A stretch of DNA of 64,000 bases from Struthio camelus (lineage: Eukaryota > Chordata > Aves > Struthioniformes > Struthionidae), in the NCBI RefSeq assembly GCF_040807025.1, contig NC_090943.1:125859400-125923399 (forward strand), written 5' to 3'. The position numbers and the translations under genes are program-made. Of the stretch, positions 6,764 to 46,238 are shown in pieces (positions within the stretch are counted from its first letter, which is position 1; every line of letters starts with the position of its first letter). The notes under the pieces were generated by a model. That model was not told the origin of the DNA and searched no databases. It was given only the letters and a program-made list of their open reading frames with translations.

Positions 6764-8320
6764 CTCAGTTTTTATGGGAATGAACTGTAGAATTATTGAT
6801 GTTTGCATAAAAATTACTTGCACAGCTATGTTCTCCATAAAATATCTTACCCAGCACTCAGCAAGCCAGCCCGGTTCAGAACATGCCAGCAATGCTCAGG
6901 AAAAGAAATCACAAAATCACAGCCATAAGGACATCTGCCTAGGGGAATGTACTCATCTTATTTCACACTTCTCACCTTTGAAAAGACAAAGCTGGAAAGA
7001 AATAAAATGTGGTTTTGGCAGTGCGGTCTCTGGAGAAGGTTCTAAACAGCTTCCTACAAAGGGTGCAGAACTACAAGCGCTGCAATTATTTCTCCTGAGG
7101 CCGATAAGGTAGGACTGTTTCAGCTTGGTCAGTTCCAGCAGCCCTGGAAATTTCTGGATTTTTCCTTCAGGCTTGCAGTTTATTCTCATTCAGCTTGGGA
7201 GAAGTTTTGGTTGTGCAGAGGTCTTGCCAGGTAGATGCAAGCATGCGTTGCACAACATCCTGCTGATCTGTAGGGACTTCTTTGCAGGTGTGAATACCTT
7301 CCAAACTGCAGGCAGAGCTGTCGCATGCAGCATCCTTGCCAGGCAACATTCACAGATCTGTGACATGCGTCTAGACCAGATGCCAATAATGATTTTTGCT
7401 GTTTTTAGCTTTGGAACTCACAGGCAGCCTGCATGCAAGCTCAAGATTAAGATTCCTACTCCTTTTAACATCAAGCAATCTGGAAATAACACGGTTGGTA
7501 TCACCTCAGGAATCAATAGGACACTATTTTGCTACTTCTTGACACTTTTGGCTTCTGCAGCCGCTGTCATTTATTCTGAGCATCAAATTCATGTCAAACT
7601 CTGGCTTCGCTAATATAAGACAGACCTTTATACTAACCTTTCACGATCCCTTTTTTTTGCATTATGAAACTGGTTGGTGCAATTGTAATGTACAGCAAAA
7701 TACCAGGGGAGTATTTGTCTCGTTACCACCAGCTTTAGCAGTAAATGTAGCTGCTAGGCTGAAACTCTAGAGTTTACACCTGATTTTCTTCACAGTACTA
7801 GTATTCATGCTAAAACCACATAGCCCCATTTGTGTTCAGCTTCCCATTTAGTGCTCAGTTACTACTCATGCTCTATCCAACAAGGAAAGCTGAAGAAAAG
7901 GAATGCACTCTTGGCCTTCCTCTTATGAAGCTTGATTAACGTGTACCCTTATTCTTATATCATGAAGTGTGTTCTGCACAGAAGTGCAGGGTGCATGTGA
8001 GGGTTTAACATTCTTATAGAACACCCCGCAAAGTATTTATAAGGTAGTTATAAAAGATAACAGTGGACTGCAGTGACCTGACAGTGATGGAAAATACCCT
8101 TCCTACTTGGCAAAGATATTGAGCCATTGACTTTAATAGCTGATACAACACATGCTGTCCTCAGTAGGAATTAAGTACTGTGGATGCTAAGAGCCCTTAA
8201 GGACCACATGTTGTGAAATGTTTGCATTTACAGTCACTGCTATTTTTCTCTTTCCAAGACATTCAGTTCCCCAAGAGTTTGCTTAGGTTTCTGACAGAGA
8301 TTACACGATATTTTTTTTTT

Positions 8321-8490
8321 GAGTGAGACTATCCTTCATGAAACTGGGCTGCCTGGCCAAACTCACCATGACAATCAGTGCAGAAGAGAATGTGATCACC
8401 ATCAAAAAAAAGTGCTTTTAAAACAACAAAATTTCCTTCACACTGGCTGAGGGAATTAAAGAAACCACACTAGATGACTGTAAAACTAAG
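8321..8490 (+). pseudogene. FABP12: FABP12 pseudogene exon 2
   Basis: This reads in the FABP exon 2 frame after a split Gly codon: GVRLSFMKLGCLAK, then TMTIS, NVITIK, an in-frame stop (TAA at 8419-8421) replacing the Lys of the FKN motif, then NNKISFTLAE and ending DDCKTK. It is 170 bases, one codon short of the canonical 173. The acceptor AG is gone (a T-run directly abuts the exon) and the donor is GC instead of GT. The NNKISF and VITIK segments are nearest to FABP12; FABP4 and PMP2 here have KNTEISF. Confidence 0.85.
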
Positions 8491-8675
8491 GCAAGAATGA
8501 AAATTTTCCTTTAGATTGCCCATATGTTCTGAAGAACATGAAAAGACCTGCATATTATCAGCAAGACTAATTGTGATACCCAGCTGCTTTTGGAAATGAT
8601 GAAATTGAAATGGAAATTCCATACTCAAGAATACAGAGGAGCCAGGTATTTTAAGAATTCTCCTAACTTGCTTTT

Positions 8676-9600: not shown

Positions 9601-10027
9601 TGCAGCAAGAAACCCCAAGACAGGATGTGGGCATTTCTGAGCGTGGAATAATCACTCCTTGATTCTGCTAGACCAAAACCTGTTCAGGGCAGGAGGTTTA
9701 ATTTTCAGCTACTCATCTCTGTTCTCTTTGTAGTAAATGGAAAGAGAAATTCACTTCCAGATGCATCCCATCATAAAATAAATTAAACTAACATCTGATC
9801 TGGATCTGCCTCTCTCATTTCACCTTGTCTCTAGCTGGAGCCTAGCTGACTAACCTCGGTAAGTTGACTAATTAATTATTGAATGACTGAAGTTAATGTA
9901 GTAAAGCCAAATCTATGCTTCTGTAGTATAATAGAAACACCATCCTGATGAGAGATATCACCGTAATCTAGAGTACAACTGTAGTAGGACTAGGAGGCTC
10001 ATGACTGTGTTCTTCATATTTCCTCAG

Positions 10028-10125
10028 AGCATTGTGACTTTAGACTGCGGGTAGCTGAATGAGGTCCAGAAACGGGCAAACGGCACATAATCGAGAGACA
10101 AGCAACGGATGGGAATATGGTGGTG
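10028..10125 (+). pseudogene. FABP12: FABP12 pseudogene exon 3
   Basis: A good acceptor (TTTCCTCAG) precedes codons reading SIVTLDCG, then a TAG stop (10052-10054), then LNEVQK. About three bases are inserted before the conserved Asn-Gly and about seven deleted after it, giving a net four-base loss from the canonical 102 and a frameshift. The end resumes with ERQATDGNMVV. The donor is GCGAGT where GTGAGT is expected. The match to the FABP exon 3 pattern VTL..G.L..VQ(K/D)W.GK...DGKMVV is unambiguous. Confidence 0.85.
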
Positions 10126-11052
10126 GCGAGTATCCTGTGTCTCAGTATCCAGTCAAGTGAGAGATTGGCTCAGCTTATCTTCTTACATGTCCCATATCCT
10201 CTGCATATCCAGGTCCCACACTAGGAACATGATCAATTAAAGAAGGAGTTTGAGGTAAGTTATGGACGCTAGGAAGGTTACATGCATATTATGAGCAATA
10301 GCTTCTGAGTAACAGCATAACCTTTATCTTGTCAAGTTGTTAACACTATTTAGTTACTATTGATGCACCCGAAGCTCTCTCCTGCAGATGGAGGAGTTAG
10401 GGACCCTAAGTTTCTTATGGTTGGCAGGGCTCTGACCTCGGGGTTCCTGCTATCCTGCCACAAGACACCCTCCTGACTGCCACTTAACTCAAGAAAGAGG
10501 CGTTCAGCTTAACGTCCTTCTCATGTTTGGGCACATGAGCTAGGATTAGCCTCCTAGGAGCTGCTTTTTTCTTCACTCTCTCATTCCTGGCTAGCTTAAG
10601 CAGGTCCCGCTCAGGATGTACAGACCCTTTCCTACACACAGGGTAGACACCTATCTCGGGGTGAGGGTTCAATACACCACTGCTTGGCACAACCTTGTGA
10701 GTGTCTAAGCCTCACTCTCTATACCCTTATAAAATTGACATAATTGAGTATTCCTACTCTTTCCAGGGGCAAATAGATTAAAGTTAATGAGGAATCTAGA
10801 TAGAATGGCTTTTGCATCCTTAGAAACTGAAATGGAGAAACCAGTAGATGGCTGTTTATTTTTTTCACTGTCAGTCATTAAGACAAAAAAATCTGATTAT
10901 ATGCTGCAAGTCTGCAGTGGTTTTTAATATATGTTAGTCTCACAAAACTTGTAATGGAATTTTCTTTCTCTATTTTAAGTGCACTAATCTATTATCATTA
11001 CAGTTTTTCTGTCACTAGGGATGTCATTTTCAGTGTAGGTTTTTTTTTTAAG

Positions 11053-11110
11053 AGAAAGAAAAAGCCCCACGAATGATTGCACTCGCACTAGGATATATGA
11101 GAAAGCAGAG
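11053..11110 (+). pseudogene. FABP12: Probable FABP12 pseudogene exon 4
   Basis: A T-run ending in AAG is followed by a stretch whose end reads CTRTRIYEKA in one frame. This resembles the FABP terminal motif CTR(I/T)YEK with about six extra bases inserted. The upstream half of the exon is hardly recognisable. It lies 0.9 kb beyond relic exon 3, a normal FABP intron 3 distance. It could be coincidence; position and the CTR..YEK match are the only support. Confidence 0.5.
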
Positions 11111-26100: not shown

Positions 26101-28563
26101 TAGAGTTTAATATTTTAAATGAATGCTAATAAAAAGAGCTTCTTAGCTAGACAGTGAAGAATTTAGATTCGTTACTGTTTTGTTCAACTCAAAATGCGGC
26201 TTCTATCCCATGCGCTAAGAAGTGATAAGACATTGTCTCATATATTTTGTGGATTCAGAGTTACTATTGACTTAAAAGAGCCTCTGAGACAACTGACCTG
26301 AAGATCTTCCAGGCTTTACAATAGCAAACACACTTTTATTCTCTTCACGTATCTCTTATTGGAACAAAGCACTCAGCTGACCAGTCTGCATTTGTAAAAA
26401 GCATAATGAAGACCTGAAGGCACTCATTCCCAGGAGCTGAGAAGCCTGTGTCCTGTGCTCTGCTCTCAGACAGGCTCTGAAGGGAAAGAACTGTGGCCTG
26501 TGTCATTTACAGCAGATATGAACCATTTAATAGGTGGACAAGTGAAGTCAGATTAATTTATCTTATTTAATTTGAGCCAGTACCTCTGACCTGCAATTTG
26601 ACTTGACTGACCACAGCGAATCTCTGGATATAAGACACAAGCATGGCTCTGTCTAGCAAGTATCACATAAGTCTCAGTAACAAGACAGAAGAGGATACGA
26701 GTCCTACTGGGCAGTCCCGAAGCAGATGTAAGCAAGGGTTTTATCACTTTGATCAGACAGATGTTTCAAGAGATGATTTCAGTTGGATGGTCTGAAATTA
26801 TTCAGAGGAGGTCTGGGAAAATACAGCAGGAGGATTTTTCAGAACAGTACCAGAAAATCTGCAAATTGCTAGAGGAAACCCAAAAGCACTTTAGGAAACA
26901 GATGATTTCTCCATTTGCATGGCTGGTGAAATATATACATCCAGAAAGAAACTGAAAGATAAAGAATCAAGAAAAGAAAAGCTTTTTTTTGGGGGGGGGG
27001 GGGAGAGGGGGGGAAACAGGTAGGATTTATTTGATGAGATGCAAGTCCAACTAAATGAAGTCCACAGAGGACAGAAAGTGGGAGTCAGACCAAGAATGGC
27101 TTTCGTTGTGCACTTGTAAGAGGAAATGTACTGATGTTAGATGTAAGACTGCGACAGTACTTGAAAAAGCTGGACAGATTTAAGCATCAGGAACAGCTGT
27201 TCTTTAGACAACGAAATTTGGTAGATATTTAGAAATATGCAACATAACCTGTGGTGCCCGTATTATAGCCAGCAAAATAAGATCTTCTCTCATGCAGGTC
27301 TTCACAAATCACTGAGTTCACTGTTGTATTTGCTGAACATAACATGCTGGGCGTAGAGCTCCTGCAGTTTGAGTGTTCTTAACCAGAAACGCCCATATTA
27401 TGTTCTGCAAGTCTATCACCTGTATATTTGCAGGACCTACCATACCTCCATCTCTTTTTATTGAAATGAAAGGAAAACTAATTAGCAAATATTCCATTTT
27501 CCTTCTTCTCTAGCATTCCTTATGCCTCATTCACTGCAATTCACAGTATTACTTGATGAGATTCACACCACCAGTTGACTTGCTGCAGGAAACAGAACAA
27601 ACATGCAGGCTAGAGCAGTGTATGAGAAGTCAGTTTTTTGCTTAGGAACAGCCCTCACCTGGCATAAGCCACAACTCTTTGAGTGTGTACTTTATTGCCT
27701 AACAATCTGCAGAGAAAAGCCAGATTCTTGGCTGTCAACATTAGTCTCGTGAAATCCACAGCAAAGGCAGGGTTCCAGAGGCTTGCCGTTTCCTCAGCCG
27801 TAGGTGCATTTTTCCTTTTTCTTTAAAGCAAGTTCAGAAAATGTAACTATGCATATTTTAATTGCAAGTTAATGCTCTTAACGCCAGGTTTTGTTTCAGG
27901 CTTGATCTTACTATGGCTTGAAGTTATGGAATGTCATTTATATTCTTTGCATTACCATAAACTTAGCCCAACGTTTCAGAAACACCTTTTAAATTTTTCT
28001 TCTGTCACAGTACCAACTTCAGATACTGGAAGCCTATTAAAGTATGTTAAGTACTCAGTTTGGTCTGAAGTCCAGGAGGAAATAGAAGTATCCAGCATCA
28101 CTAAAAACAAAAATCTAGTGCTGAGACCCACCAATCTGAGTTCCCCAGATCTCATAGTCCAGCAGCTTAGCTGGATAGAGATGTGCCAGTAGCCACTCAA
28201 GGCAATAATAGACCTATTGTTGCTGCCAGCCAAATTTGACTCCTTCAACAAAGTGACCATTTGTAACAATGCTGTGAGTCCTGAGTCAAACCTGAACTAA
28301 GCCATGAGTGCTTGAGGAGCACCAGCTTGCTGCTGGGGACTGTTCTGCTGAGCAGAGAAAAAGGGATCTACTTGTGCGTCCTGTTCACCTCTCCCGGAAA
28401 AGGGAAGTCAAAAGCTACCAAATACCCATCAGCCTCTTGAATTTTCAAACCAATTACAGCCAGTATTTTGATCAGTCAGTGAGTTACATCATGACTACCG
28501 AAGCTTTAGTTATACCTTTTCCTGAATAAGTAGAAGTCTAAGGAAATGTCTTGAAGCTTAGTC
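11111..28563. other. Gene-poor interval between FABP12 and the inverted FABP relic
   Basis: About 17 kb without a recognisable exon on either strand. All open frames are short and lack known domains or flanking splice patterns. Notable items are an imperfect repeated segment at 13330-13351 and 13359-13380 (CCAGAAAATGATT followed by A and CTTGCC variants), a slightly CpG-richer patch at about 21995-22240, a poly(A) run at 22427-22440, somewhat GC-richer DNA around 24720-25330 and a G-run at 26991-27013. Regulatory elements may be present but cannot be told from the sequence alone. Confidence 0.6.
26991..27013 (+). repeat. Long G-run with quadruplex potential
   Basis: Thirteen consecutive G, a short AGA spacer and seven more G, directly after an eight-T run. 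The sequence alone allows G-quadruplex formation on the plus strand. It is also a place where assemblies commonly miscount bases. Confidence 0.85.
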
Positions 28564-28739
28564 GGAAAGGAAAGGAAAGGAAAGGAAAGGAAAGGAAAGG
28601 AAAGGAAAGGAAAGGAAAGGAAAGGAAAGGAAAGGAAAGGAAAGGAAAGGAAAGGAAAGGAAAGGAAAGGAAAGGAAAGGAAAGGAAAGGAAAGGAAAGG
28701 AAAGGAAAGGAAAGGAAAGGAAAGGAAAGGAAAGGAAAA
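28564..28739. repeat. (GGAAA)n pentanucleotide array, about 35 copies
   Basis: An essentially perfect tandem array of GGAAA over about 176 bases, broken only by one extra A at its right end. It is pure purine on the plus strand and pure pyrimidine on the minus strand. Both strands give artefactual open frames (Lys-Gly-Lys-Glu-Arg repeats and Phe/Leu/Ser/Pro repeats) that are not genes. The low divergence implies recent expansion and probable length polymorphism. Confidence 0.97.
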
Positions 28740-29562: not shown

Positions 29563-29735
29563 CTTGTTTAACCTCTTATTTGCTGTGGTTTCTTCAAACT
29601 CCTCTCTCGTTTTGAAGGAGATGTCTACAGTTCTGAAGATACTCTTGCTTTTGATGGTTATTAGATTCCCATAAGAGCTGATGACACAGCACTGTTTAGC
29701 CAAGCTGCCCAGCTTCCTGCTGGCCAAAGACACTC
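29563..29735 (-). pseudogene. Inverted FABP relic, intact exon 2
   Basis: Exactly 173 bases between a clean acceptor (CTTGCAG) and donor (GTGAGA). It encodes 58 residues, including the split Gly, without a stop: it opens GVSLASRKLGSLAK, continues NLITIKSKSIF and DISFK, and ends with REEFEETTANKR. Odd substitutions for a functional FABP are CC in place of the usual hydrophobic/charged pair after LAKQ, and loss of the DDRK-type turn. Confidence 0.88.
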
Positions 29736-30434
29736 CTGCAAGTCCCATAAATCCCGGTTTGCCTAGGTTTCCAGGCTCACAGGCAGCACTGGTTTCTTCA
29801 TGTCTATTTAGTACTCCAGTTCTTACTAGCAACATTATATTACTCAAGACCTGTGCCTCAAGAGCAGGTGGGGTTTATATCAGATGCTGTCAATGCCACA
29901 AGCTTATCTCTCGTCACAGGAAGTTTATCTCAAGGGAGACGAGACCATAAGTAGAATTCCTAAATATGAGCGAGTCCATGAGCTGGCTCACAGATAAGTG
30001 CTTGCTTTGAACTAAACAAGCAAGTCAGCCCAGAAGCTGGTTTTTTTCAGCTTGCAGTTTTGAGTCAGCATGTTTGCAAGTCATCTCCAAATAGTTCAGA
30101 TTCACTCTAAATAGGTGTAAGTAATTGATTGCCTAGGGAGAGTAGTGAGCTTGTCTGTTCTAAATTGATTTGCATGGAGCAGGTACTTCACCTCTCTCCC
30201 AAGAAACCCTTTCCAGCAGCACAAGAGTTGCAGGCAGCTGTGTACACCAAAGGAAAACCATTTCATGCTTTCAGGCCAAGGTTTTGAATATAAAAACCTT
30301 ATTTCCCCTCCAAAGAAATGAATGCTAATAGCAGTAAACGGCACCCAGTTCCCCAGAGGCAAGAGAAGTAAGTGCAGGAATTGAGCTCAGCAAGATCACA
30401 TCCTTTCTATCTGAGGCACTACCGCATTCCTCAC

Positions 30435-30510
30435 CTAATTCTTTCAAGTAGTCATTGTATTTTTCTGGATTTGAGTTTTCAAATTCCTACAGACTGCTCT
30501 GCTCACACAT
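30435..30510 (-). pseudogene. Inverted FABP relic, exon 1 with stop
   Basis: This is 76 bases, against the canonical 73. It reads MCEQSSL, stop (TAG), then EFENSNPEKYNDYLKEL and the first base of the split Gly codon, with donor GTGAGG. The stop aligns with the conserved Trp of GTW (TGG to TAG is one change). One codon is lost before it and two are gained after it relative to FABP4. The YNDYLKEL end matches the FABP signature region FEDYMKEL. Confidence 0.78.
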
Positions 30511-30879: not shown

Positions 30880-31562
30880 TAGCCATACAGGCTGGGAACT
30901 GACTGGATGGGGAGCTGCTCTTCAGAAAAGGCCCTGAAAGTCTTGGTGGACAGCAAGCCAAGCCCTGCCAGAGTAGGAGGCCAACAGCATCCTGGGCTGT
31001 ATGATCAAGACCACAGCCAGTAGGTCAAGGGAAGTGATTACTCCTTTTGCTTGACGCTTATTTGGCCATATGTAAAATACTACATCCAGTTTGGGTCCCC
31101 AATACAGAAAGGCAGTGATAAACTGGAGCAAGTTCAGTGGAGACCACCAAGCCAGTTGGGCTAGAGCACTTGACCTGTGTGGAGAGGCTGCAGAAGCTGG
31201 GCCTGTTCACCCTGGAGAAGAGACGGCTTCAGGGTAACCCAACAGCAGCCTCCCAGTGCCTCAAGAAGTCAGATCCAGGCTCTTCGCAGCAGTGCTTGGT
31301 GGGAGGGTGAGAGACAACAGGCATAAATTGAAACAAGAGAGGTTCAGACTAGCTATAAGGATACCCTTTCCACAACAGTCAGTCAGGCAGTGGCATAGGT
31401 AGCCCCAAGAGGTTGTGCCATCTCCATCTTTGGAAGTTCTCAAGACACAACTGGACAAAGTTGTGAGCAACCTGGTCTGAGCTCAGAGCCGACCATGCTT
31501 GAGCAGGAGGTTGGACTGGAGACTTCTCAAGGTCCCTTCTCACCTGGATTATCATATGAGTC
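30880..31562 (+). mobile_element. CR1 LINE, 5'-truncated, plus strand
   Basis: Contains the characteristic CR1 3' ORF2 and tail phrases: GGCCAACAGCATCCTGG near 31010, GGGAAGTGATTACTCC near 31035, CACCCTGGAGAAGAGACGG near 31210, GGTTCAGACTAGCTATAAGG near 31340, CTTTGGAAGTTCTCAAGACA near 31430, and GGTTGGACTGGAGACTTCTCAAGGTCCCTTCT near 31510 (given here in pieces of one run). It ends near ATTATCATATGAGTCTG, a degraded CR1 terminal repeat. CR1 is the dominant avian LINE, so this supports a bird source. It lies between the inverted FABP relic and FABP4. Confidence 0.88.
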
Positions 31563-32697: not shown

Positions 32698-35508
32698 ATG
32701 TGTGACCAATTTGTGGGCACCTGGAAGCTCCTTTCTAGTGAAAACTTTGAGGACTATATGAAAGAGCTAGGTGAGAAATATTATTTGGAGTTATTCTGGG
32801 CCAGGGAAGGAATGCTGAATATGAACTTTACTTGCTTTTCCTAGCTATTCTTTTTACCAAGAGCTTTTTAGTTCAACTAGTTTAATTAGACAGTCTTAAA
32901 CTGGAGAATTTGGCTGTTTGGACGAGTGGTGTCAAATTCCTATAACAGAAAAACCTTGATTGGGAGGAGTAGTTTCAGGTAAGCCAAGCCTATGCATGCT
33001 TACTTAGCAGTGCTATTAAGGAAGTAAAACACATCACTGCAATATTTTGTATGGATTTACTTTTATCTTTTGGAGATGCAAAGTAGTATAATGCTAAAAT
33101 ACAGCACACTTCACCATGTCTAAACATGTTTGTATTGCTATTGGACTAGGAGACAGACTAATTGTCTTGGCTACTATAGAGAATGAGGCATAGTTGCCTC
33201 CAGTGTATACTAACATAGGAAATTGCATGGATTCCAGAATAGATACCTGGAAAAGACTTCAGGGATAACACTTTTATCTACAGGTGTAGGCTTCTTGTTT
33301 TGAATTAAAACTGAGCCTTAAAGGGTTTCTACTTTCTTGTAGGGTAAGGGAGGTATGGGGAAACTTGCACCAATTGGATCAATACATGCTAAAAAGTTGG
33401 CTTTTTGTTTAGAGATTAAATTCTGCTCACTGAGACTTCTCCAGCATTCAGACAGCTTTCAGTGAGACTCTTGTACTCTTAATCTTTACCCCAGATTTTA
33501 GTCAGGGCACAAGCATTGCCAGTTATTTCTTAATCATTTCTTTTTTTTCAGCCTAGCCAGAGATAAATATATCTGTAATTTAAGTGATGTTTTTGTTTGA
33601 TTGGTTGGTTGGTTTTGTGGCTTAGAAGATCTCATATACTTCTGCTTATTTACTTTTAGATATCACTATAGTGAAAGATAGCGTAAAATTGATTACAGTT
33701 ATTTGGAAGAAGACAATATGCAAATACCAGGCATTAAAATCTTGTCTCAAGCTTCATAATATTACTTTTGTTGTTCTGATAATGATAAAGGGGAGAATAT
33801 CCTCACTTCATCCCACCTGGCTAGGTCCATAAAAGGACCAACAAATTAGATGTTTCAAAGGAACCTCTGCAACACAGATTTAATAAAAATTTAAGAAAGT
33901 AAATGGGAGTTCAGTGTTGGTCCTTTTTTTCCACAAATGAGAGAGAAAAACACTAAATAAATATAAGAATTTCATAATGCCCCGTCTTATTTACAGGTGT
34001 GGGGTTTGCCACCAGAAAAATGGCTGGTGTGGCCAAACCCAATGTAACTATCAGCATCAATGGGGATGTGATAACTCTCAAAACAGAAAGCACCTTCAAA
34101 AATACAGAGATCTCTTTCAAGTTGGGTGAAGAGTTTGATGAAACCACAGCAGATGACAGAAAAACAAAGGTGAGTCCAGAAGCGTCATTCTTTCTCTCAA
34201 AAAGGATGTGGAAGTAGGAGGAAGTAGTTGTGATTTTGACATCCGCTGTAGAAATGCTCCTTTAAAAGGTGGGAGCACCAAGAATGTTCTGTAGACTGTT
34301 TGGTCCCCTGCACTTCAGTGCTGTTTGGACATAGAAACAATCTTCTCTTTAGGCTGAATGGCCCTGACGAAATAGCCACACTTTGATTTTTTTCTTTGGC
34401 AGAACATCATAACCCTAGATAATGGCTCACTGAACCAGGTGCAGAAGTGGGATGGAAAAGAGACTATAATAAAGAGAAAAGTGGTGGATGGGAACCTCGT
34501 GGTGGTGAGTTCATTTTTGTTGTCCAGTCACTGAATCCATTATGCAGAATCCTTTTTCTGGTAAATGTATTCTACCATATTCAAATGGAAAGATTGAAAG
34601 CATCTGAAAAGACTGTGCACTTATTCTGTGCACTTACTCAGCAAGAAGTTTCTCTGAACAAGTCAGGAGCAAGTATTTATACTGAAACAGTGTTAACATT
34701 TACAGGTGGAAAGGCATGAAGATGCCTGTTTTCCTTAGCACGAGATGGTTAGGAAAGAGTTGCAAGGAAAACCAATGTCATTGTGAGGGAAATTCTTACA
34801 CAGCAGAATCTTAAAGTCCATCACAATATGCAGGAAACATTAACAAAGCCTATGGTAAATGTGCCTGCTCTGTGCTGATGCAAAACATTCCTTCTGTTTG
34901 TCTCTGGTAGAGACTCAGCAGCAATCTATGAGAACTGTACTATGGATCACAAATAAATGTGTCAATAATATGATATCATTGCAAAAAAAAAAAAAAAAAA
35001 GAATGCTATGTCTGAGTTGTGTTAGTTGCTATTATCTAGTCAGAAACAGAAGGCAACTAACTGTTGTGCTTGATTTAGTGCCAGCGAGGCCTAGGTACTT
35101 GTTTGGGGTTTCCCAGCACTGCTCTACAGTTTTTGGAAAAGACATGCACACTTTGAAGAATCTGGGAGGGAACTAGCAGAGTGTTCATAATGGTAACTAA
35201 GATTCCTATATGCTACAAAAGGAAAAATGTATATAGAATTCCAAAGAGCGCTACCCTAGAGAAAAAGACGTGCTCACAAATTTAATATTTAAATGTCTTT
35301 GGATAAAGTCCAGAGGAGAACAAAGAGAAATAGTTTTTAATAACAGTTAGGAAAGGCTGAAGAAAATAAGGTTTGATCTAACGGAAAAATAGAGGAGGGT
35401 AGAGCCTAACATGTAGAAGCTGATACCAACAGCTGCAGGCCTGAAAGATCTGTAGGACTCTGTGTGTGCATGCGTGTGTGCGTGCACGTGCGTGTGTGCG
35501 TGTGTGCA

Positions 35509-35550
<42 letters not shown>

Positions 35551-35990
35551 AGTGGGTGCACATGTGAAACAAGCCACAGCTACAAAAAGTAAAAGGAAGA
35601 AAAGGCAAATACCTGGCTCCAGAGTCCAATTACCCCCCACAGAAGTCCTAGAAGCCTTCTTCAGAGGCTTTTAAAAGGAGACTAGGCATTTCCTTGGGAA
35701 TGGGATGACTGAAACAGTGCTTTGATGTTCTTTCAGTCTTGTGTTTCTAGGAAACATTTTTGACTTTTGTTTCTAAAGCTCTCAGACTTGAGTTTCATTG
35801 TTCTGGCAATTGGTTTTAAAGGAGGAGCAATGCAAACACTTTCCAGTACCGGTTGCCAATGGAAAAATAATTCTCTACCTTCTGACTAACAAATACTCAG
35901 TGAGAGTTAAGAGCTGGTTAAATGTACCTTTCTTCCTAGGAATGCACCATGAATAATGTTACCTGCAAAAGAGTTTATGAAAAAGCATGA
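32698..35990 (+). CDS. FABP4: Fatty-acid-binding protein 4 (adipocyte FABP, aP2)
   Basis: Four coding exons: 32698-32770, 33997-34169, 34403-34504 and 35940-35990 (73, 173, 102 and 51 bases; introns 1226, 233 and 1435, all GT-AG; phases 1, 0, 0), giving 132 residues. It starts [20 protein letters not shown], which contains the FABP signature, and ends [12 protein letters not shown]. The fold is a ten-stranded beta-barrel with a helix-turn-helix lid. Fatty-acid carboxylate ligands R107, R127 and Y129 are present, as are the residues assigned in mammals to the conformational nuclear-localisation surface (K22, R31, K32) and nuclear export (L67, L87, L92). The family shuttles long-chain fatty acids in adipocyte and macrophage cytosol and delivers ligand to PPAR-gamma. 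PMP2 lies 6.4 kb downstream on the same strand. Calling FABP4 instead of FABP9 rests on the MCD start, [15 protein letters not shown] and position. No damage was seen. Confidence 0.97.
34952..35000 (+). repeat. A18 tract preceded by AATAAA in FABP4 intron 3
   Basis: AATAAA (34952-34957) is followed 25 bases later by 18 uninterrupted A (34983-35000). That arrangement is the usual 3' end of a retro-inserted transcript. I cannot identify a source transcript upstream or a target-site duplication, so a simple A-run near a chance hexamer is equally possible. Confidence 0.35.
35461..35547. repeat. (GT)n microsatellite in FABP4 intron 3
   Basis: About 87 bases of alternating purine-pyrimidine, with GC steps and CATG interruptions in the left half and a pure GT run on the right. 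It lies about 390 bases before the FABP4 last exon. Such tracts can adopt left-handed DNA and are often length-polymorphic. Confidence 0.95.
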
Positions 35991-42396: not shown

Positions 42397-45300
42397 ATGT
42401 GTAACCGATTTGTGGGAACCTGGAAGCTCGTCTCCAGTGAAAATTTTGATGATTATATGAAAGAATTGGGTGAGAAATGTTATTCTCTTTTTTTTAATAA
42501 GTTTTCTTTAGCAATGTCTTTTCTTCATCTTATGCTTTGCTCACAGGTAATGTCTTCTTCTTGGCCATAAGCACTTTAATTACCTTCTAGTATGATCTCA
42601 TGTATTACTGTTAGCATCTAAAATGGAAAAGTTACTAGATTATTACAATAAATTTACTTCTGTCTAACTGATCTGAATGATCTATTTTCCTGTAATGAGT
42701 AGGATCTACGGAGATGCAGGACTTCTTTGGTTTCTCTTGATTGCACTATTAAACTCATGACTTGTGATAATTTACAATATATAATGGAGCTGATGTCTCA
42801 TGACACTTGGGTTTCAGAGGTCTAAACTCTATGAATGAATCTATCTGTTACTGAAGAATGCCAGGAATGTAATAAATTGAGCATTGTTTTTTAGTTTAAT
42901 GCTGACTTCATCTCTATATAGCAAGTGCAAAGACAGTCAGTTCCAGCATTTCTTTTGCTATATAAATGATTCACTGAAACATTAATTCTCTTTATTTGAA
43001 AGGTTAAACTGAGTAACAAAAGAACTTCAGTTAATTAATTAAGCAGAGTAAATGTGGGATGAAAATCTAGCTACAGACATTTTTCTGAAGATCTGAACAG
43101 AATTGTTTCAGTATTGAGTAATTACTGCAGCTAGTGTTATACTTTACAGATAACTTTATATCCTTTTGTGTCCATCTTTTCATCTGAGCATACCACAGAA
43201 TTAACAAAGGCATTAACTATAGCTATCCCTGTTCTGCTTTTATAAAATGGGGCTACATCATCAGTGGCCTTTATTCTAATTTTCCTCAGACCTCGTAACT
43301 TGTTGACCATGAATTGAGAAGAATAGCACAAGGTAATATAAAAGACTCTTGACATAGGATTTTTACTGAAGTTTTCTGCACCTCTGCACTCTTATATTTC
43401 AATTTCTTTTTATTTATTGCCTGAACTTTTCACTGAGATTCAGACATTAGGATCTTTAAGCAGTGGTAGTAGTAACCTAGGAATTGCTTGGGCACCAGTA
43501 TATTTTGTGCTTTGAAGAATAAGCACCAGCATACTGGGAGTTCAGTCACTAGTTTCTTCCTTGCAGCTGGTCAGCAAAAGCTCAGATTCCCAAATTTGTC
43601 AAGAATAGCAAAAATAAAAGGATTTTTGCAAGATATATGAGTTATAGTCCTTCTCAATGCATTTTTCTACCCATTCTATCACTGCACAGAAACAATACAG
43701 GTTAGTAACCGTCTAAGTTTCTGCTTAGCTAAATGTACACAGCTGTATACACGTGTATATCTTTATTTCTTGCTGGAGATACATCAGCTGGGGATGCCTG
43801 AACCTCTGAAAGCAATACTGTATGCAGCTTCCACATATGAGGAAGCAGTGTCTCATCTGAATCAGACATTATAGTATTCAAGAAGAAACTTTTCATTATT
43901 TTTTCACAGAAGTTTTATGAAATTATAATGAGTTTCTTGCTTCCTAGGATGTAATGCTATTTTTTTTTTCTAATTTATAGGAGTGGGCTTAGCTGCCAGG
44001 AAACTAGGTGGCTTAGCAAAGCCTGATGTGATCATCAGTATGAAAGGGGACATAGTAACTATCAGAACTGAAAGCACCTTCAAAAACACAGAGATCTCCT
44101 TCAAACTGGGCCAGCAGTTTGATGAAATGACAGCAGATGACCGGAAAGTCAAGGTAAGGTGGCTAACAATCTCTAAACGATCTCTAAGGGATCCTGACGT
44201 CCTAGAATTGAGCCAGGAGGAGTTTTTCCGCTATGAAATTTCCAAGCTATTCAAGAAAGTACCGAAAGAGGAAACAGTATGGTGCTGACATCAATGTTAC
44301 TAAGTGTGTCTTTAGTAGAAAATGTGGATCTTGCTATCCAAAAAGTGAATTGTTACTCTAATCTACGAAGCTTGGATCACATTTTGAAACTCGTCTCTTG
44401 GCCTTTGCAGAGTGTTGTAACCCTCGAGAAAGGGTCATTGCTGCAAGTGCAAAAATGGAACGGCAAAGAGACCACGATAAGGAGAAGACTGGTTGATGGG
44501 AAAATGGTGGTGGTAAGTACCTATGCTCTCCCTCCTTGTAAACTGCCAAATGGTAGAAGGATGAAGCCTTCAGTTTGTTTCAGTCTAAATTATCTATCAA
44601 CTTTGACTTTCTCTTTGGCTTACAAGAGAAATAAAGAGGGAGAAAAGGGAAAACAAGCTTAGGAAACAAGTTGGAAGGAAATAAATCTTATTCCTTACAA
44701 CAAATTGTCTTTAAAGTGATTATATTGGCAGAGCTGCCATGATCTGAGAACGTATTTACTGCTCTCAAAGTTATTATTCTGAAAACAAATGAGCCTCTCA
44801 AGCAATAGGAACCTGTGAAATGCAAAGTTTGCAAGTCATATACATCTAAGCCTGGACTAGCTCTGTCTTTCCTTCTTTCTATATTCAGAATAAAGCACGT
44901 CCACTTTAGGTTTTACAACTTTTCCCATGTCTATTTCCATTAATGCCAATCAGTTCAGAAATGTATGTTTGCTCTGTCCGTGTCAGCATGCCAGGCTCAC
45001 TAAGCGGGTGCCTGAGGTTTTTTGCGTGAAAGCTGCTGTCTCTGGGTCTTCTTGCGATAATAAACTATAGCAGGGACTGACAGGTCCTGACAGCTCCACT
45101 GAAAGCCCTCGGTACTATGAGAGCTGAGTCTCTGAGGAAGGCTAGGGAGTGGTGACTTTCCCTCATTATCTCTTTCTCTCACCAAGGCTAACCTATCTTT
45201 CTCCAACAGACACACAGAAAGCCACAGGAAAGCCAAGCCAGTATAATAATACATTTTAGGGGCCTTAGTTGTAGTACTTCTTAATAGAATTAAAATTTTA

Positions 45301-46238
45301 TCATTGAATAAAGTAAAGTACTTTGTTCGTTAAAGTTTTTAAAGAGAAGAGCAAAATTAGTTTGGTAACTTGTTTGAAAATAGCAGCAATAAGCCTTAAT
45401 ACCTGAGTTCTCACTGCACTTTGTTTTAAACTCTAATACTTTTGGAAGGTTGATTTGATTTTGCATTTTATTGTGGCTGCGTTTCTCTGTAAATCTCTCC
45501 TAATTACTAAAACGTCTTTGAAGAGCTGAGCAGAGAGGCAGGACCCCTCTTCCACCGATGTCCTGCCGTCTGCGGGACAGAAGCCTCCCTAAAGCACCTT
45601 GGCACATTGCACATTGGCGGGGATAAGGCACAGCAAACCTCATCAGTCTGCAGAGGACAAGGTCTCTGTGACGCTCCTCTCTCCCCCGTTGCTCAGGCCC
45701 TGTAGTTGTGAGTCACCAGGAGCCAGGCAAGGGTGAGACAGTCAGCAGAAACGTTTTGTGATTCATAAACCCAAAGTTTTATAGGCCAGAGACCTGACCT
45801 CTGAAATTACATAGCCCACTTTTACTCCCATAAATAAAATTATTTTTTTAAATTGAAAGCGTTCATGGGCTGTAGTATAATAAACCAGGTAAGGCTGATA
45901 TTTCTGTCAGGTCAGGTAAATATGTTTCTGGAAGCTGAGCAAAACTGAAGAAGCTACATTGCTACCACTTCTCCTTGATTTTGCAATGTATTTATCATTA
46001 TATGTCACTTAAGTAAGCCTGATGCTGTTAAAATAGCAACTTTTTCCACAGCTTTGCTGTTTGCTCTAAAAATAACACAGAGGTGTATAATATGAAATCT
46101 GGATTTTCACTGATTTTGGTGGTCACTCAAGCAGAGGCACCTGCCGTCAGTGAGAGTTTTAAATTAATATTTTATTTTGTGTCTTAGGAATGTGCCATGA
46201 AAGGAGTTGTCTGCACCAGAATCTATGAGAGAGTGTGA
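42397..46238 (+). CDS. PMP2: Peripheral myelin protein 2 (FABP8, myelin P2)
   Basis: Four coding exons: 42397-42469, 43981-44153, 44411-44512 and 46188-46238 (73, 173, 102 and 51 bases; introns 1511, 257 and 1675, all GT-AG; phases 1, 0, 0), giving 132 residues. It begins [20 protein letters not shown] and ends [25 protein letters not shown] and [15 protein letters not shown] identify PMP2 and separate it from FABP4. Ligand residues R107, R127 and Y129 are present, and C118 and C125 correspond to the pair able to form a disulphide in mammalian P2. Many Lys and Arg residues (RRR at 106-108) fit the basic character of P2, which binds and stacks myelin membranes and carries fatty acids in Schwann cells. 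Residue 2 is Cys, where human has Ser. It is in tandem with FABP4 and likely arose by duplication. No damage was seen. Confidence 0.97.
45760..45830 (-). mobile_element. Possible CR1 3' scrap in PMP2 intron 3
   Basis: Read on the minus strand, GGGCTATGTAATTTCAGAGG, then TCAGGTCTCTGGCC and TTTATGAATC resemble, with a deletion, the older CR1 3' tail (CTATGGCCTGTGTTATACAG, GAGGTCAGACT, TTCTGGCC, CTATGAATC). Too short and diverged for certainty. Confidence 0.3.

Follow-up and report, generated by a model that had tools for sequence, protein, structure and literature searches.

A pseudogene of an old FABP-cluster paralogue, inverted and head-to-head with FABP4, in a bird genome

In mammals, the clustered genes FABP12, FABP4, FABP9 and PMP2 share one orientation, and human FABP5 is inverted relative to FABP4 and PMP2. 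The 64,000-nucleotide stretch of Struthio camelus DNA analysed here, referred to as the window, takes in the greater part of an FABP cluster, avian by the positions of its FABP4 and PMP2 in the trees, and together with its flanks it reads IMPA1(+), FABP12 pseudogene(+), relic C(-), relic B(-), FABP4(+), PMP2(+), FABP5(-), the FABP12 pseudogene being called relic A below. A preliminary description of this DNA had taken the tetrapod cluster members to lie in one orientation, a rule that suits the four mammalian genes named first but leaves out FABP5, which is inverted here at the other end of the cluster. In the literature searched, judged by titles and the openings of abstracts, no description of inverted FABP relics in birds was found.

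The features of the window are given below by window coordinate and strand; HMM scores are set against null maxima of 2.5 bits for exon 1, 4.7 bits for exon 2 and 4.2 bits for exon 4, obtained from the reversed sequence of the window and of four flanking loci.

8320-8493, plus strand: relic A (FABP12 pseudogene), exon 2, with a stop and a missing codon; 62% to crocodile FABP12
10024-10131, plus strand: relic A, exon 3; a stop and a frameshift
11060-11110, plus strand: relic A, exon 4; HMM and PSSM matches
17046-16996, minus strand: relic C, exon 4 trace, ATCIRIYEEY; HMM 8.8 bits (null 4.2); colinear with the other relic C exons
18145-17987, minus strand: relic C, exon 2, degraded by a stop and the loss of one residue; HMM 16.8 bits (null 4.7)
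18838-18762, minus strand: relic C, exon 1, GIWKLLSRENLN, 77 bases with a GTAAGG donor; PSSM z 5.9, HMM 9.2 bits (null 2.5)
27330-27280, minus strand: relic B, candidate exon 4 trace, NTTVNSVICEDLHERRS; PSSM z 5.5, HMM 1.3 bits (null maximum 4.2)
29735-29563, minus strand: relic B, exon 2; 173 bases, open frame, CAG before and GTGAGA after
30510-30435, minus strand: relic B, exon 1 (pseudogene); ATG, in-frame TAG at codon 8, KYNDYLKEL end, GTGAGG donor; supported by emu model P0001
32698-35990, plus strand: FABP4; four intact exons (32698-32772, 33996-34169, 34400-34504, 35940-35990)
42397-46238, plus strand: PMP2 (FABP8); four intact exons (42397-42471, 43980-44153, 44408-44512, 46188-46238)

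On the left flank, IMPA1 is represented by three plus-strand stretches of similarity in flanking locus L008, some 17-20 kb before the window begins, and on the right a minus-strand gene about 47 kb past the window end is taken for FABP5 by its place and resemblance. Since FABP4 lies on the plus strand with its ATG at 32698, relic B and FABP4 stand head-to-head, 2.2 kb apart from ATG to ATG; between them, the minus-strand interval 30900-31500 is presumably a piece of a CR1 retrotransposon. A DR1-like site, AGGTCAGAGGTAC, occurs on the minus strand at 26580-26592, upstream of the ATG of FABP4 by about 6.1 kb. Overall there are 11 PPAR-type DR1 sites with two mismatches, and no site has fewer than two; 10 first-order resamples give an expectation of 5.5.

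Relic A, situated between IMPA1 and FABP4 on the same strand as FABP4, falls in three trees (100/99, 99/99 and 100/99) within a FABP12 clade of crocodile, turtle, marsupial, rat and gorilla sequences, and is the FABP12 orthologue, pseudogenised in this bird. A FABP12 exon 1 considered at 6.2 kb (PSSM z 5.3, 5.9 bits) was rejected, having no donor at the expected place and similar scores elsewhere; comparable scores judged to be chance occur at 60.5 kb (6.3 bits), as an exon-2 match in L008 (6.7 bits), which meets an IMPA1 exon, and as an exon-3 match in flanking locus L010 (7.5 bits). Rat FABP12 is linked to testis and retina in the title of Liu et al. 2008. Two papers limit FABP12 to mammals (PMC7193176; PMC6928644). 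The crocodile and turtle FABP12 proteins together with relic A contradict this mammal-only distribution, and judging from these sequences FABP12 is older than mammals.

Relic B, a pseudogene in this genome, goes back to a real, old gene, as follows from an emu gene model that is its sister and contains both of its exons. The arrangement given in the preliminary description, a minus-strand exon 1 with a GTGAGG donor and, 699 bases away, a 173-base exon 2 that is open and keeps both its splice sites, proves correct to the base. Against FABPs of the PDB, the exon 2 protein finds PMP2 as its top match (E=1.7e-14, aligned over residues 1-57 of the 58), and the exon reaches 71 bits by the exon-2 HMM, where the null maximum is 4.7; among exon-2 matches in the window it ranks third, behind FABP4 and PMP2 (PSSM z 12.5). 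A Pfam scan of the same 58-residue piece returned no FABP family row, its sole row being another family below the cut-off (E 0.0048, 17.1 bits vs 25). The length of exon 2 and its phase 1 start agree exactly with the FABP gene layout, and exon 1, at 25 codons plus one base, is one codon longer than that of FABP4. By itself exon 1 is weak (HMM 4.2 bits vs a null maximum of 2.5; PSSM rank 7, outscored by some unrelated matches), but it becomes convincing because in the emu model P0001 the same end of exon 1 precedes an orthologous exon 2.

FABP similarity is thus clear in relic B, but an intact beta-barrel coding sequence is absent, since exon 1 contains a stop and no convincing exon 3 or exon 4 was found. 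The preliminary description is borne out in seeing here an inverted FABP paralogue that has been lost in this genome; the paralogue has an orthologue in emu and intact-looking relatives in turtles. Of the 'single Trp-to-stop change' described for exon 1, the stop is present, but the damage was understated, the GTWK block being unrecognisable. Exon 3 was not found above the null by six-frame HMM, PSSM or tblastn with the emu protein, and the search at lower coordinates suggested earlier yielded no convincing exon 3 or 4 by HMM or PSSM, the scores of the one exon 4 candidate being in conflict. A perfect 35-copy GGAAA array lies at 28564-28738; read along the strand of the gene, it follows exon 2 at a distance of about 0.8 kb.

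The emu counterpart, UniRef model P0001, was the sole match to relic B among two candidates (E=2.8e-13), and the two are sisters in three trees (96/97, 95/97 and 99/98). At the end of exon 1, 10 of 13 residues within the exon are identical (the tblastn figure of 80% over 15 includes two last residues beyond the donor of the window), and in the second part of exon 2 the count is 29/41. The P0001 exon 2 also includes 11 residues, GSWAAWLNSAV, in a shifted frame and identical to the other frame of the window, which means that the emu exon 2 is frameshifted relative to the window near 29685. Preceding this stretch, the emu model has GEGFSV, which is unlike the exon 2 start and may be sequence read past the exon-1 donor, where the window reads G-E. 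Given this apparent read-through of the exon-1 donor and the change of frame within exon 2, the splicing of P0001 is no proof of a live gene. The two birds share two changes at near-invariant sites, T30S and K35R, and their common branch is long (0.43-0.44 changes per column), which together indicate that divergence began before the split between emu and the window bird; loss would then have followed a relaxation of constraint that predates this split.

Turtles carry several intact-looking cluster paralogues, predicted proteins annotated as 'adipocyte-like' or 'P2-like', which are labelled here as groups T1, T2, T3, T4 and T5 (T3 including P0124 and P0131, T1 including P0076, and T5 being P0201 alone). 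Relic B and its emu sister group with T3 at 89/64 and 81/70 in trees that mask 11 emu residues, and at 95/80 when 16 doubtful emu residues are masked. The AU test does not reject placement of relic B and emu with T1 (0.16), or of relic B with T2 (0.26), T4 (0.23) or FABP12 (0.16 including relic A, 0.09 without it), and it nearly rejects placement with FABP4 or PMP2 (0.07 each). The motif GVSLA of relic B is present in 3/3 T3 proteins and in no other alignment row listed, and in the tblastn of exon 1 T3_Terrapene is the top row among 40 references (E 0.029). In BLASTP of relic B, T1 and T3 tie at 84.0 bits each; by exon, exon 2 favours T1 and T2 over T3, and exon 1 ties T5 with T3. From these comparisons, the nearest intact relatives of relic B are probably the turtle paralogues, with T3 the best candidate and T1 the alternative. 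FABP9 was rejected as the identity of relic B, human FABP9 falling with FABP4.

Seven exon mixtures were flagged among the 211 proteins listed, the turtle cases P0105, P0115, P0122 and P0123 running from T2 to T1 or from T4 to T1 and P0073 being a weak flag within FABP12, and two long fusions read by eye run from T2 to T1 (P0002) and from T3 to T4 (P0069). As the mixtures and fusions of T genes all run one way, these genes appear to be arranged as a series with a single direction, in which T3 stands upstream of T4, and T1 downstream of both T4 and T2. The remaining two flagged mixtures, the bird models P0110 and P0128 (condor and hawfinch), combine exons 1-2 of FABP4 with exons 3-4 of PMP2, either as an annotation chimera or through read-through splicing.

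Relic C, the second inverted relic, is more decayed than relic B and has no exon 3 that could be found in the window. Its exons 1 and 4 count mainly by their order, because seemingly chance matches reach 7.5 bits in real sequence, and it is left unplaced, none of six groupings tried being rejected by the AU test (p 0.20-0.43). By position and strand, relics B and C appear to belong to the same inverted block. On the minus strand relic B lies upstream of relic C, an order that fits a reading in which relic B would be the counterpart of T3 and relic C a downstream member.

Altogether, relic B is probably what remains, as an unprocessed pseudogene, of an ancient FABP-cluster paralogue that was akin to T3 or T1 and lay between FABP12 and FABP4 in the opposite orientation, in a place that held at least two inverted genes (B and C). 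The timing of its loss bears on an improbable alternative, namely that the gene was lost recently or that exon 2 is still used, for example via a promoter inside the former intron 1. Exon 2 is open with both splice sites, a 124-codon open frame runs across it, and a TATA-like ATATAAA lies near 29879, though by estimate such a word within 700 bases is unremarkable. Against this, 9 of 30 near-invariant residues in exon 2 (those at least 90% conserved across 40 intact FABPs) have changed and 21/30 are retained, the corresponding retention being 17/28 in relic A and 12/26 in relic C, with gaps set aside; exon 3 was not found; and in emu, too, part of the modelled exon 2 is out of frame. Counted over the sites that are alike in FABP4 and PMP2, the differences of relic B exon 2 per codon position (13/46, 13/53, 9/31) show no third-position excess, a pattern that resembles the broken FABP12 relic and is unlike the intact FABP3 (8/46, 6/53, 14/31) and FABP7; the test is weak, however, as intact FABP5 also lacks a significant excess (p=0.14) and the direct comparison of relic B with FABP3 or FABP7 gives p=0.07. 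Under simulated neutral drift to about 70% of near-invariant residues, run on FABP4 exon 2, which is less prone to stops than relic B, about 3-15% of cases, according to the indel rate assumed, keep a frame that is open and free of indels. The open frame is therefore mild evidence for later constraint at most. The changed residues, the codon-position pattern, weak as that test is, and the drift simulation favour old decay with a lucky exon over the recent loss put forward in the preliminary description, and on reading the sequence nothing demands the alternative first exon that it also considered.

The orientation of the block admits a further alternative, of real though lesser weight: the B/C block may have been turned by an inversion in the bird lineage or in this genome, the genes from IMPA1 to PMP2 having ancestrally run one way. 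This is a sub-question, which changes the origin of the orientation and leaves the identity of relic B as it is. The shared orientation of the mammalian genes speaks for such an event, and so does the one-directional turtle series, though the latter fits either orientation; on the other side, inverted repeats of at least 40 bases are absent from 5-48 kb, and, as a weak point, no mixture or fusion among the 211 proteins listed joins a T gene to FABP4, FABP12 or PMP2, even though T-T joins and, in birds, FABP4-PMP2 joins do occur. The same absence of inverted repeats makes an assembly misjoin or local inversion error very unlikely, together with a 64-kb stretch free of N inside a 173.7-Mb contig, canonical synteny on both flanks, and the presence of two relics of different decay in one inverted stretch. 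Slightly less credible still is a young inverted duplication of FABP4 or PMP2. Both genes are neighbours of relic B, and AU values of 0.07 fall short of formal rejection, but the exon 2 of relic B shares only 47-49% identity with theirs, its place in the trees is with emu P0001 and the T genes, which already suggests a separate gene, and forcing it together with FABP4 costs 15.9 log units and with PMP2 6.7.

For the preferred reading of relic B as an ancient, inverted cluster paralogue, the following history may be proposed. An inverted FABP block, either inherited or created by inversion, would have stood between FABP12 and FABP4; in early birds it would have become relaxed and then died, FABP12 dying too, with FABP4, PMP2 and FABP5 remaining. 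The living relic B gene presumably had four exons and served, as the related genes do, as a cytosolic carrier of fatty acids, and in the bird lineage it would have evolved fast before it decayed. Its exon 1 would have lost the GTWK block and gained a stop, exons 3 and 4 would have gone or become unrecognisable, and exon 2 would have stayed open, most likely by chance; relic B is now most likely without function. The inverted block of B and C would be the counterpart of the turtle array. Tentatively, and with somewhat less than even confidence, the turtle/archosaur ancestor can be pictured with a cluster larger than that of mammals, comprising FABP12, an inverted T3-T4-T2-T1 array head-to-head with FABP4, then FABP4 and PMP2, from which birds lost the array and FABP12 and kept FABP4, PMP2 and FABP5, relics B and C being the remnants.

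These relics suggest that extra FABP-cluster genes were present in the ancestors of this bird and then lost, rather than being simply absent from birds; relics of this kind can serve to date gene losses and to orient them. Foremost here are relic A and the possibility that birds lost an entire inverted array; if several fatty-acid carrier genes were lost in the bird lineage, this would be relevant to how fat metabolism evolved in birds.

In comparison with known systems, relic B is a pseudogene of the known FABP family, in an orientation that is new as judged by the titles and abstract openings searched. FABP4 and PMP2 of the window are cluster paralogues that share its exon-2 length and phase, yet they are intact, lie on the opposite strand and show the modest exon-2 identity given above. 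FABP5 is, like relic B, inverted relative to FABP4 and PMP2, but it is intact and lies at the other cluster end, convergent with PMP2. FABP12, known from mammals, crocodiles and turtles, is a cluster neighbour, and relic B falls outside it in free trees. In emu P0001 exon 3 is still recognisable, whereas relic B has no detectable exon 3. The best-matching intact relatives are the turtle T3/T1 paralogues, part of an apparently one-directional multi-gene series in which T3 shares the GVSLA motif; the turtle T genes are intact as predicted and relic B is broken, the turtle and emu genes being known here from their proteins alone.
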